The position numbers and the translations under genes were made by a program. DNA of 64,000 nt from Bacilli bacterium. GTDB taxonomy: Bacteria > Bacillota_I > Bacilli_A > RFN20 > CAG-826. The stretch covers positions 1 to 64,000 of the forward strand of contig JAFTDF010000020.1 in NCBI GenBank assembly GCA_017454295.1, in the 5' to 3' direction. The notes under the pieces were generated by a model. That model was not told the origin of the DNA. It ran no database searches and saw only the letters and a list, made by a program, of their open reading frames with translations. Below are positions 3,549 through 13,087 of this stretch, piece by piece; positions within the stretch are counted from its first letter, which is position 1, and each line of letters opens with the position of its first letter.

Positions 3549-4208
3549 TCATTCAAGATTTCTTTCTAATATATTGGGTTGCGTTTCGATAAATCCTTTT
3601 GCTTTATAAAATAGTTTTGATTCCCAATATTTTTCATCTCCGATATGAATCGACATCTTTTTATAACCCTTATTTTTAATATACTCTTCAAGAGTTTGCA
3701 TCAAAGCGGTCCCAACGCCCTGCCTTTTTAAGTCGGGTTTAATATATAATCTATGGACCCTTGCTTCCCCAGGATTTATCGTCTCATATCCAACGCAGCC
3801 AATAACCCGTGCACCATCTAAGGCAACCCAAAACATATCTCCTCTATCAAGATAATTCGATTTAATATCTAATAAATCTGGATTAATTGATGGAATTTTT
3901 CCCAATGCATTCTTTGCCGACAGCACCATAAATATCATGTCATCTCGAAAACGTTCATCGTAACGGGCTATTTTAAATTCTGGCAATTTGCAAGTTTTGC
4001 CTGTAAAAAATATACCAACATGGACCTCTAAAAGTTCAGCAAGTTGTGCAAGTGCTTCCCCCGAAATATCGTTAACACCTGTTTCGATTTTTGTTAATCC
4101 AGAGCGATCTTTGAATCCCATCCTTTTGGATAGTTCCTCTTGGGAAAGCCCTCTCTCTTTTCTGATTTCCCTAATCGTCTCTCCAATTTCCTTTTTGGTT
4201 GTGTTCAT
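3549..4208 (-). CDS. XRE-GNAT fusion protein
   Basis: A 219-residue two-domain protein. Residues 1-65 are an XRE helix-turn-helix (IREIRKERGLSQEELSKRMGF, then SGLTKIETGVNDISGEALAQLAELL). Residues 75-219 are a GNAT acetyltransferase with the acetyl-CoA loop DLKRQGVGTALMQ. The ATG overlaps the stop codon of the RhuM-PLD gene upstream (ATGA), so the two are coupled. The DNA is AT-rich compared with core genes, a sign of transfer. XRE-GNAT fusions sit next to toxin or mobile loci in other genomes, but the acetylated target is not visible here. A HipB-like link to the upstream gene is speculation. Confidence 0.8.
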   Translation of the reverse strand: MNTTKKEIGETIREIRKERGLSQEELSKRMGFKDRSGLTKIETGVNDISGEALAQLAELLEVHVGIFFTGKTCKLPEFKIARYDERFRDDMIFMVLSAKNALGKIPSINPDLLDIKSNYLDRGDMFWVALDGARVIGCVGYETINPGEARVHRLYIKPDLKRQGVGTALMQTLEEYIKNKGYKKMSIHIGDEKYWESKLFYKAKGFIETQPNILERNLE

Positions 4209-5068
4209 AATATAACTCTATCCTTTAGAACGTCTTTAACATCCTCATCTTCGATAAGTGTAATCTGGGTGAATCTTTTTCCTAGATGATTAATTGACGC
4301 GCCAAGGTGATAGAAATATGTGCTGTCAATAATCAAATACCTATCATGGTAATTATCATCATGAGTCACACTAAGATTCCCATATTCTTGATTGAACAAG
4401 TCTATGTCAACTTGAGACACCTTTGCCTTAGAAGAAACGATGATTTTTAATTCAACCCCATCGCTCTTCCCTTTGAAGCAATTAAGCGCTTTTATATCGC
4501 AATACGGGTCAATCAAAACAATTTGTTTCACTGCCCTGCTAACCAAATCATTAATCAGAGATAGCGCATCAAAAATTTGTCCTCCAAAAACAACCCGATC
4601 TTTGAAGAAATAATTCTGATCTTTCTCAAGTTTTTCCATTCTTGAATCAAGCAAATCAACTTTTTTAATAAGTGCTGCATAATTGTCATTAGTAATTAAA
4701 GTTCTGTTTTCATCAACAACATAGCCTCTTAATAAATATTCCTTAAGAACATTGGCGGCCCACTTTCGAAAAATAATTCCATTTCGTGACTTGACTCTAT
4801 AACCGACAGAAATAACCACGTCTAGATTGTAATAATCTACATAATATGTTTTCCCATCAGAGCCAGTTCGGGCAAATTTTGCCCATACTGAATTTTTCTC
4901 ACATTCTTCCAAAAGAGCATTTTTTACATGTTTTCCTATTACCGATCGATCTCTACCAAAAAGCATTGCCATATCATCTAGCGACAGCCAAACAGTTTCT
5001 TCTGATGGCGAAACATTTACTTCGAGCTTTAAATCGCCATGCTCGAATCTAATTAATTCTAATTTCGT
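4205..5068 (-). CDS. RhuM-family protein with C-terminal PLD-like domain
   Basis: The N-terminal third matches RhuM/ORF6N proteins (TVWLSLDDMAMLFGRDRSVIGKH spans part of it, then KTYYVDYYNLDVVISVGYRV and FRKWAANVLKEYLLRGYVVD). A coiled-coil linker (LLDSRMEKLEKDQNYF) leads to a phospholipase D-like domain with one catalytic-type motif, HDRYLIID, which is HxKx4D with Arg in place of Lys. The first ATG in frame is at 4972, inside the conserved domain. The frame stays open upstream to 5077 and encodes the missing conserved residues, but has no ATG, GTG or TTG there. ACG at 5068 is the likely original start position, read as an altered ATG. The DNA is AT-rich. RhuM proteins are common on mobile DNA; their function is not settled. 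Confidence 0.7.
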   Translation of the reverse strand, partial: TKLELIRFEHGDLKLEVNVSPSEETVWLSLDDMAMLFGRDRSVIGKHVKNALLEECEKNSVWAKFARTGSDGKTYYVDYYNLDVVISVGYRVKSRNGIIFRKWAANVLKEYLLRGYVVDENRTLITNDNYAALIKKVDLLDSRMEKLEKDQNYFFKDRVVFGGQIFDALSLINDLVSRAVKQIVLIDPYCDIKALNCFKGKSDGVELKIIVSSKAKVSQVDIDLFNQEYGNLSVTHDDNYHDRYLIIDSTYFYHLGASINHLGKRFTQITLIEDEDVKDVLKDRVIL

Positions 5069-7118: not shown

Positions 7119-7130
7119 CCGAAGAACAAA

Positions 7131-7198
7131 AAAGGGGCTGTAATCCTCGCCTTTTGCCAGTGGTTGGCTTGAGGTTTTGTTACAGCCCCTTTTCTTTC
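7131..7198. terminator. Bidirectional rho-independent terminator
   Basis: GGGGCTGTAA pairs with TTACAGCCCC around an inner CCTC/GAGG hairpin. AAAAAA and TTTTCTTT flank the stem, so it can end the polymerase-YolD operon on the plus strand and the small peptide gene on the minus strand. Confidence 0.85.
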
Positions 7199-7207
7199 AA
7201 TGCTCAA

Positions 7208-7366
7208 TTAGAAGTTATAGATGGAGAGGGGGATACTCGGAGCGGCAGAGCAACGGATCGAGAGGTCAGCATAGGTCAAGGCGACCAGTGCATTGTCTTC
7301 TTCAGTCTTATTGATGTCGCTTTCATAGCCCAATTCTTCGTCAAGGAGCTTGATTGCGTCGGTCAT
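7208..7366 (-). CDS. Small peptide gene (52 residues), precursor-like
   Basis: A 52-codon frame, ATG at 7366 and TAA at 7208-7210. AAGGAGGT lies 6 bases before the ATG, a near-perfect ribosome site. A promoter is visible upstream (TTTACC-18-TATAGT) and a terminator follows directly. The first half is strongly acidic (KLLDEELGYESDINKTEEDN); the second half is hydrophobic and hydroxyl-rich with one Cys, ending SIRCSAAPSIPLSIYNF. The leader/core look resembles peptide precursors that are processed or modified, such as RiPPs or signalling peptides. No modification enzyme, protease-exporter or immunity gene is adjacent, so the class is unknown. There is no typical signal peptide. Confidence 0.7.
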   Translation of the reverse strand: MTDAIKLLDEELGYESDINKTEEDNALVALTYADLSIRCSAAPSIPLSIYNF

Positions 7367-7422
7367 GTGCCTACCTCCTTTCATGTTGTGTTTGATTTCG
7401 GTGGTCTTTTTTGACCGCCACC

Positions 7423-7452
7423 ACTATAGGCGTCTACAAAAAAGTTGGTAAA
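7423..7452 (-). promoter_or_regulatory. Promoter of the small peptide gene
   Basis: TTTACC and TATAGT separated by 18 bases on the minus strand. A short hairpin (GGTG-GC-GGTC with GACCACC) lies in the leader between this promoter and the ribosome site. Confidence 0.5.
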
Positions 7453-7453
7453 T

Positions 7454-7480
7454 AGAAAGCGTTTTCAGTAAGTGCTTTCA
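7454..7480 (-). promoter_or_regulatory. Two overlapping cre-like sites
   Basis: On the minus strand TGAAAACGCTTTCT fits the CcpA cre consensus TGWAARCGYTWNCW at every position. It overlaps by one base with TGAAAGCACTTACT, which differs at one position. Both lie just upstream of the peptide gene's -35, where CcpA activates in Bacilli. No ccpA gene is in the window. Confidence 0.5.
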
Positions 7481-7493
7481 AATTTTCTGAAAA

Positions 7494-7534
7494 TAAAAAG
7501 TGGCTTTTTATCGAACTTTTAGCCACTTTTTTGA
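7494..7534. terminator. Terminator after the M29 aminopeptidase gene
   Basis: AAAAAGTGGCT and AGCCACTTTTTT form the stem. On the minus strand it is followed by TTTTTATTTT. It separates the aminopeptidase transcript from the peptide gene. Confidence 0.8.
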
Positions 7535-7583
7535 AAGCGATACCAATTTTCGTTTTCAGTGTTTTGACTTGTTTTTTCAGTCT

Positions 7584-11331: not shown

Positions 11332-13074
11332 TTACCTTAGGCCGGATTTTTTATCGACGTCGGCTTTCCGTGGGAATAAGCGACGGGAGAGGCGGCACCC
11401 TAGGAATGCCTCCGGGCCCACATGGAATTCGGTGCCACGGGGCACGAAAGTCTTCAAGGAAGCGCAATTTTGGAAGGCACCTTCGCCGATGGTCAATTTC
11501 CTGGTGGACTTGCCGGTTTCGAAACGCTCTAACTTTTTACAATTCATGAACGTATAGAGATCGATGCAGATTTCCTCACCTTGCAAAACCACGACGCTTA
11601 AAGACGGGCAATCCCGGAACGCGTTGGCGTCGAGCGTCAATTTGTCGGCGGTGATGGCAATCGCGAAAAGACGGGGACAATTTTGGAACGCCCCTTCTCC
11701 GACGAAGAAGGAATCCGTTTTGGGGAATCCGATCTTGGTAATCATCGATCCCTGAAACGCATGGTCTTGGATTTCTTTGACCGTGGAGGGCAGTTGCACC
11801 ACTTCAACGGTTGATCCACGGAAAGCATGTGGGCCAATGGAAGTAATCCCTTCGGGTAACCCGAGGTTTTTATGGTTCCCTTTATAGCGGATGAGGACTC
11901 CATTGCGGACTTCCAAGCTTGGGTCGTCAATGGCGGGATAATCACGCGTTAGCGGCGTTTTGGCCAGACCGGCTTTAACGTTTTTGGCAACATTGGAAAA
12001 TAAATTCTTCACAAAGCCGCGGCCCTTGGGGGCACTTGGTTTTGGCGTCGGTTCGGGCTGGGGATTCGGGGTTTCCACTTTGGGGGCGGATTCTTTGGCT
12101 GCGGTTTTGGCTTTTTTGGGTTTGGGCGTAGGGGCTTCCATAGCGGTGGATTCAAAGCGAAGCAACCGTTCCACAAGGTCTTCTTTATCGCGGCACCACT
12201 CCAAATTCGCGAACACGCTCCGCAAAATCGATTTGGCGGCGAATTTGGTTTGGGGACCATATTCTTGCCCCAAATATTCGACGCGGTTCATTTTGGGTAG
12301 GTGGTCCCGGATATAGGGGAGTTCAAACCGCATGGCATCGCAACTAAGACGACGGGAATTCTCCGTGGAAACGAAAACCACCGTTTTACAATGGGCCATC
12401 GCGTCATGAAGGGCATCTTGATAGTTTTCCTTAGCCCCTTTGCCGTGGCGAAGATTCCGCACGGCCACGAAGACCGTGAATTCGTTTTCTTCCAAAAAGT
12501 CGGCAATGGAAATGGCCAAAGGAAGATCGGCGCTGGAATAGGCCAAGAAGACATCGCGGGGAAGGTTGGTTAGATAGACGCCTTCTTCCACCCGTTCGGC
12601 TTCTTTTTCCACTTTGTTATAGGCATCCAGAAGCGCATCGCCTTTTAAAGACCGTTCGAAATAGGCTTTTAAGGCAAAGACGTTGCGTACATCTAAATTT
12701 AATAAGGAAAAGCGCAACACTTCTTTCGCGGTGGTGGGATCAGGACGAGCAATGGTCAAAAAATGGTTGAGCGCCGCCGGCTCTTTATCTAGACAAGCAA
12801 GATAGAAACGAGCCATTTCATCCTCGGCGAAAATGGACAAAACGTCTTGGGCCGCGGCAAAAAGTTCGGTGGAAGAGACATTCTCCCGATGGGCCGCATC
12901 CCAAAGCAAGCGACGGCGGTTGGATAAAAGCGCGAGTTTTTCTTCGGCAACGAAAGAAGCGAGCTCTTCCAAATCCGCTCCTTTGTCATAAATGGCGCCA
13001 CAATAAGGGCAGCGGTAGTTTTCCCCTTCTTGGAGAAGCTGTTCGCCACATTGCTGACATACATGCCGCTTCAT
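11332..13074 (-). CDS. Zinc-ribbon / TIR / BspA-type leucine-rich-repeat protein
   Basis: A 580-residue multidomain protein with no signal peptide. A zinc ribbon has Cys6, Cys9, Cys22 and Cys25. A helical region of about 130 residues follows. Residues 173-260 form a TIR domain: RDVFLAYSSADLPLAISIADF, BB-loop region VRNLRHGKGAKENY, and CDAMRFELPYI, whose Glu251 aligns with the catalytic Glu of NAD-hydrolysing TIRs. A Lys/Pro/Ala-rich linker (about 312-355) leads to about seven BspA-type (LRR_5) repeats, such as ITSIGPHAFRGSTVEVVQLP. I chose ATG 13074 because GGGGG lies 7 bases upstream. It follows folD by 13 bases and should share its transcript. NAD cleavage or a defence role is inferred from the TIR only. 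Confidence 0.85.
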   Translation of the reverse strand: MKRHVCQQCGEQLLQEGENYRCPYCGAIYDKGADLEELASFVAEEKLALLSNRRRLLWDAAHRENVSSTELFAAAQDVLSIFAEDEMARFYLACLDKEPAALNHFLTIARPDPTTAKEVLRFSLLNLDVRNVFALKAYFERSLKGDALLDAYNKVEKEAERVEEGVYLTNLPRDVFLAYSSADLPLAISIADFLEENEFTVFVAVRNLRHGKGAKENYQDALHDAMAHCKTVVFVSTENSRRLSCDAMRFELPYIRDHLPKMNRVEYLGQEYGPQTKFAAKSILRSVFANLEWCRDKEDLVERLLRFESTAMEAPTPKPKKAKTAAKESAPKVETPNPQPEPTPKPSAPKGRGFVKNLFSNVAKNVKAGLAKTPLTRDYPAIDDPSLEVRNGVLIRYKGNHKNLGLPEGITSIGPHAFRGSTVEVVQLPSTVKEIQDHAFQGSMITKIGFPKTDSFFVGEGAFQNCPRLFAIAITADKLTLDANAFRDCPSLSVVVLQGEEICIDLYTFMNCKKLERFETGKSTRKLTIGEGAFQNCASLKTFVPRGTEFHVGPEAFLGCRLSRRLFPRKADVDKKSGLR

Positions 13075-13087
13075 ATCCACGCCCCCT

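Follow-up and report, generated by a model that had tools for sequence, protein, structure and literature searches.

An unlisted reading frame for 52 residues in a genome of uncultured Bacilli raises the question of whether so short a sequence is a gene and, if so, what its product might do. The original prediction had read it as an expressed gene with features of a peptide precursor. The gene itself stands, while the main point had been missed: its promoter is shared, and many other small genes carry it. It is this promoter-defined set of small proteins that we consider worth following.

A small gene conserved beside yolD-umuC

In the window, the 64,000-nucleotide stretch of contig JAFTDF010000020.1 analysed here, the frame reads along the minus strand, a point left unstated in the original prediction, with an ATG at 7366-7364 and a stop codon ending at 7208, and its 52-residue product is MTDAIKLLDEELGYESDINKTEEDNALVALTYADLSIRCSAAPSIPLSIYNF. 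The near-consensus ribosome site expected for it is there as a Shine-Dalgarno sequence, AAAGGAGG, at normal spacing from the ATG (7381-7364, comprising AAAGGAGGTAGGCAC and the start codon), as is the strong terminator, an intrinsic one at 7130-7193 on the minus strand with a 14-bp perfect inverted repeat (7130-7143 and 7180-7193) and then a T-run. The stem is symmetrical, so the terminator might work for yolD as well, from the opposite direction. On the same strand, a -10 hexamer, TATAGT, lies at 7423-7428 and a weak -35-like hexamer, TTTACC or TTACCA, at 7446-7452, 17-18 nt upstream of the -10. A simple promoter scan finds this pair, but at chance level when taken alone (2 found against 1.9 expected); the call rises above chance because the -10, its spacing, the operator boxes described below and the Shine-Dalgarno sequence recur in 13 aligned relatives, and this conservation bears out the claim that the gene has a promoter of its own.

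An M29 aminopeptidase gene lies upstream in the same orientation, and on the other side a yolD-umuC pair converges on the frame. The nearby products are the M29 aminopeptidase, a YolD-like protein, a UmuC-type polymerase, PhoH and others; as had been stated, maturation genes are absent beside the frame. The 52-residue peptide has no match in Pfam, NCBIfam, PHROGs or PADLOC, and its homologues give only weak single matches (PHROGs at E ≥ 0.08, and for one homologue PADLOC PDC-M01B at E 0.0053, probably by chance). An Rfam scan of the window returns a tRNA only, and nothing at this locus. Elsewhere on the minus strand of the window, 11332-13080 encodes a protein that has both a TIR_2 domain and leucine-rich repeats of the BspA type, and 4205-4972 a 255-aa protein with a RhuM-family N-terminal domain, beside an HTH-GNAT fusion at 3549-4208.

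The original prediction had staked itself on conservation in close relatives, and 13 of the 31 genomes of the genus carry a homologue of 49-55 aa, the window's gene and 12 others, which we call class A. The genus consists of uncultured Bacilli near 'Candidatus Alloenteromonas', and isolate names indicate that some of them came from reindeer, goat rumen and horse faeces. A single-sequence search of 193 relatives yielded one convincing homologue, in genome G001, with the same neighbours and the same AAAGGAGGTAGGCAC stretch, 15 bases identical, before its start codon; the others came from reading the gap between M29 and yolD and then from profile searches. At every locus whose flank was read, the class A gene adjoins yolD-umuC, including one (G027) without an adjacent M29 gene. 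In leave-one-out tests, where each member was scored with a profile made from the remaining 12, all but one of the 13 exceeded every one of 200 shuffled versions of themselves; the exception is the member from G006. Four class A pairs give dN/dS values of 0.31, 0.39, 0.44 and 0.23; the closest pair, G008/G028, gives 1.25, a value resting on six changes, and another pair is saturated at synonymous sites. Several members of the genus have no class A gene at the M29 site. One of them is G018 (59% complete), which has the most closely related M29, and its lack of the gene marks the latter as dispensable. The occurrence of class A across the genus, in a kept gene order and with codon-level constraint and conserved signals, supports the earlier view of a real small gene that is probably expressed.

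Class A proteins share an acidic N-terminal half, a middle motif, NTExNxYIAxVYAxLS, and a variable tail, the motif being better kept than the tail. The window's peptide has a net charge of -7, within a class range of -2 to -10. A signal peptide or transmembrane segment is absent throughout class A, where the first 15 residues have a net charge of -1 to -6 and the top 19-residue hydropathy is 1.14. AlphaFold2, run with the 13 sequences, predicts one helix over residues 3-41 followed by a loose tail (pLDDT 76, pTM 0.43).

A promoter architecture shared by unrelated small genes

The 155 nt upstream align well across the 13 class A loci. In the window, on the minus strand, they hold a cre-like box, TGAAAACGCTTTCT, centred near -44 (7454-7467), a second, TGAAAGCACTTACT, near -57 (7467-7480), which forms a 13-bp tandem with the first, and a distal one, TGGTATCGCTTTCA, near -122 (7532-7545). 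Aligning the 13 loci also brings out a conserved element, TCGATAAA..GCCACTTTTT, at 7495-7516 on the minus strand; in the window genome this element overlaps an inverted repeat resembling a terminator of the upstream M29 gene. By leader folding, the predicted transcript would begin with a hairpin, GGTGGCGGTC-AAAAAA-GACCACC, at 7400-7422 (minus strand).

The same features, namely cre-like boxes, a sigma70-type -10, a 5' hairpin and AGGAGG, are shared well beyond class A. Across 41 promoters with a callable -10, the boxes match TGWAANCGNTTNCA at 9-11 of 11 scored positions, and their centres fall at -43/-45, -53/-54, -56/-58, -66/-67, -79/-80, -120/-122 and -132/-134. These positions form two registers, offset by about one helical turn: class A uses about -44, -57 and -121, and several other classes about -53, -66, -79 and -133. 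The boxes thus lie upstream of the -35 in fixed helical register, often as a 13-bp tandem. Mean identity is 0.384 at a lag of 13, where most other lags give about 0.27. All 21 leaders that were folded start with a hairpin, with stem sequences that differ and a mean z of -2.95 against mononucleotide shuffles.

Two promoter models were built from DNA only, without protein sequence: R1 from the aligned upstream region of the class A loci, and the broader R2 partly from loci that it then re-finds. At E ≤ 0.1, R1 has matches in 164 of the family's 224 genomes and in 31 of its 35 genera. R2 matches all 31 genomes of the genus (E ≤ 0.5) and, at E ≤ 0.01, 130 of the order's 279 genomes, four other families included; the weaker matches will contain chance ones. 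Among 88 matches read, 81 precede an ORF that has a Shine-Dalgarno site and is no longer than 90 aa, mostly 35-60 aa, as against 11% at random positions in the same loci. Since the model contains the Shine-Dalgarno site, which biases hits to gene starts, a fairer baseline would be the lengths of ORFs at gene starts in general; most bacterial genes exceed 90 aa. Exceptions behind the promoter include groES, genes for a lipoprotein and an AdhE-like protein and, in two genomes from another family of the order, a LacI-family gene.

The proteins encoded by these small ORFs are mostly acidic and belong to several classes, among which no common ancestry is detectable. Beside class A, these are class B (YTxxLExIAxxGxxF-DEE), class C (YxxADxLxExxxxNAxExxNTGxxF), class D (ESYGxN), class E (DNHN..GW), class F (WxxAAFxQT) and class G (xELGYPEDHEYYED). 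The window genome has a class C copy of its own on another contig (G000:C17, locus L190, 3300-6000), MEEKETYEEVETHEVPLMYQIADRLVECLYINNAELSNTGDSF, with a weak match to the promoter model (E 0.007). In G015 (L119/L102, JAUNOH010000001.1), a promoter of class A type precedes two different small ORFs in tandem within one operon, one of 54 aa and rich in Lys/Arg, the other of 53 aa and acidic. Kinship with class A was considered for L233 (G041), which is alike by eye but scores within its shuffles, and so common descent of the classes is not claimed. The string LDEELGY, common to the window's peptide and a class G member (L155, SLDEELGYPEDHEYYED), was set aside as coincidence, as it does not recur elsewhere in class A.

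Some surroundings of these small genes are recorded here in their own right. At L140, L141 and L142, two class B genes stand in tandem, each with a full promoter and three cre-like boxes at 13-bp spacing. Small acidic ORFs at L125, L126, L131 and L139 lie a few hundred bases upstream of an apparent ECF-transporter S-component gene, and at L134, L137, L149 and L237 the downstream gene encodes an XRE-type HTH protein.

A candidate activator and probable carbon control

The window genome encodes exactly one LacI-family protein (the assembly is about 90% complete). Its nearest relative in NCBIfam and in the PDB is CcpA, and it scores 178 bits against a ccpA equivalog cutoff of 442, so far below that CcpA orthology is not certified. 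A perfect cre palindrome, TGWAANCGNTTNCA, occurs at 9 sites in this genome as against 0-1 for the reversed pattern, near genes that we judged by eye to encode a sugar-type ABC binding protein, a beta-glucosidase-like protein and lipoproteins. In Bacillus subtilis, where the cre consensus is WTGNNARCGNWWWCAW, a cre upstream of the -35 goes with CcpA activation that depends on the helix face (PMC3463425). From the boxes upstream of the -35 and a single LacI-family regulator nearest CcpA, we infer CcpA-type activation of the promoter set. A full-length double operator unique in the genome would suggest a dedicated regulator, an idea that was dropped in view of the looser form of the cre pattern and of the presence of just one LacI-family gene. 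At L220 and L224, which belong to another family of the order, the promoter model matches upstream of the LacI-family regulator gene, which suggests autoregulation.

The explanation we favour is that the gene is one of several unrelated small-protein classes sharing a promoter across a taxonomic family. It would form a single-gene transcription unit whose promoter, with tandem cre-like boxes placed upstream of the -35, is most likely activated by the sole LacI-family, CcpA-like protein when a preferred sugar is available. The 5' hairpin would probably stabilise the transcript, and translation would proceed from the strong Shine-Dalgarno site. The product would be an acidic, mostly helical and presumably cytosolic small protein, which, we conjecture, most likely acts by binding a specific partner (an enzyme, transporter or regulator) and tuning it to carbon status. 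The whole, a carbon-controlled regulon of cytosolic small proteins governed by a CcpA-like regulator and acting by partner binding, seems to us about evenly poised between right and wrong.

Alternative explanations

A chance ORF or decaying gene without function would fit a sequence that changes fast and is absent from the M29 site in several members of the genus, but it is hardly credible for a gene kept in 13 genomes with its promoter, Shine-Dalgarno sequence and synteny, and whose leave-one-out profile scores lie beyond those of shuffles. The transcript could instead act mainly as a regulatory RNA, the ORF being fortuitous or adding a further function, on the model of SR1/SR1P: it would be short and monocistronic, with a 5' hairpin, a strong terminator and control of carbon type, and B. 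subtilis SR1 is a dual-function RNA of just this type (PMC7430163). Recovery of the class A protein in 12 of 13 leave-one-out profiles, a synonymous excess in most pairs and the conserved Shine-Dalgarno sequence make this quite unlikely, as do the lone tRNA that Rfam reports in the window and 5' leader sequences that, hairpin aside, diverge between species. It is easier to imagine, though still unlikely on balance, that the promoter set is real while another LacI-type or unknown activator answers a different signal, the small proteins being stress or growth-phase proteins. The 13-bp tandem arrays differ from the single-box form of B. subtilis CcpA targets, the LacI-family regulator falls under the CcpA equivalog cutoff, and groES and an AdhE-like gene are among the weaker promoter matches; against this, that regulator is the only LacI-family protein in the roughly 90% complete assembly, and perfect cre palindromes lie near apparent genes for sugar uptake and glycoside hydrolysis.

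The remaining alternatives concern the peptide itself. In the precursor reading, whether for a RiPP or a leaderless pheromone, the N-terminal half would be a leader and the tail a core, with maturation and export genes unlinked. The original prediction rested this on an acidic front and a hydrophobic, Ser/Pro-rich back with one Cys, which is literally true of the window's peptide, although the Cys and Pro residues vary in homologues. A conserved middle motif followed by a variable tail is what a processed core would give, the tails are rich in Ala, Ser, Gly and hydrophobic residues, and other classes have conserved C-terminal motifs (WGIAAFMQTxxA, AELxNTGDSF, GWEN). The class A tail nonetheless has no conserved modifiable residues (no Cys/Ser/Thr pattern), no leader is common to the sister peptides or classes, and the locus lacks a maturation or export gene. 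Class A also has neither the signal peptide nor the hydrophobic N-terminus of a Sec-exported pheromone. The suggested co-occurrence with unlinked modifying enzymes, looked for among SPASM radical-SAM proteins, did not materialise: 6 of the 13 carrier genomes encode such proteins, as do 10 of the 18 genomes without the peptide. We therefore regard a modified or signalling precursor as improbable. A broader version, in which unrelated short peptides under one CcpA-type promoter make up an undescribed, lineage-wide peptide system of intracellular effectors or of precursors for unlinked machinery, is a possibility we hold tentatively and with some doubt. If it were true, the supply of sugar would turn on a whole layer of peptide-based regulation or communication among the uncultured Bacilli of the gut.

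Relation to known systems and implications

The carbon-controlled small-protein regulon that we favour has relatives of several kinds among known systems. The cre-type boxes upstream of the -35 recall the CcpA-activated genes ackA, pta and ilvB of B. subtilis (PMC3463425), and the regulator here is likewise of the LacI family and nearest CcpA. Unlike those genes, the targets here are monocistronic small-protein genes, with two or three boxes, a 13-bp tandem and a distal box near -121 or -133, and the regulator lies below the CcpA equivalog cutoff. SR1P is a very short protein that binds GapA and whose gene answers to carbon regulators (PMC7430163), a likeness in size and in carbon control; enzyme binding belongs to SR1P and would be conjecture here, and under glycolytic conditions CcpN represses SR1, as CcpA does weakly, whereas activation is what we expect of the class A promoter. 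In cyanobacteria, IF7, IF17, PirA and CP12 are likewise small proteins under a global nutrient regulator, and IF7 and IF17 bind glutamine synthetase and PirA binds PII (PMC7760959); there the phylum and regulator are different, and the partner binding conjectured here is known.

Individual members of our classes may already be listed in GMSC or sORFdb. These are reportedly catalogues of microbiome small proteins, covering short unannotated ORFs in gut bacteria.

If the favoured reading is right, a single promoter grammar would mark dozens of unannotated small proteins of uncultured gut bacteria and predict when they are produced, and small genes could be found through their control region instead of through sequences that are too short. 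The Bacilli would then have a sugar-dependent layer of small-protein control, resembling that which small proteins exert in cyanobacteria by binding enzymes.
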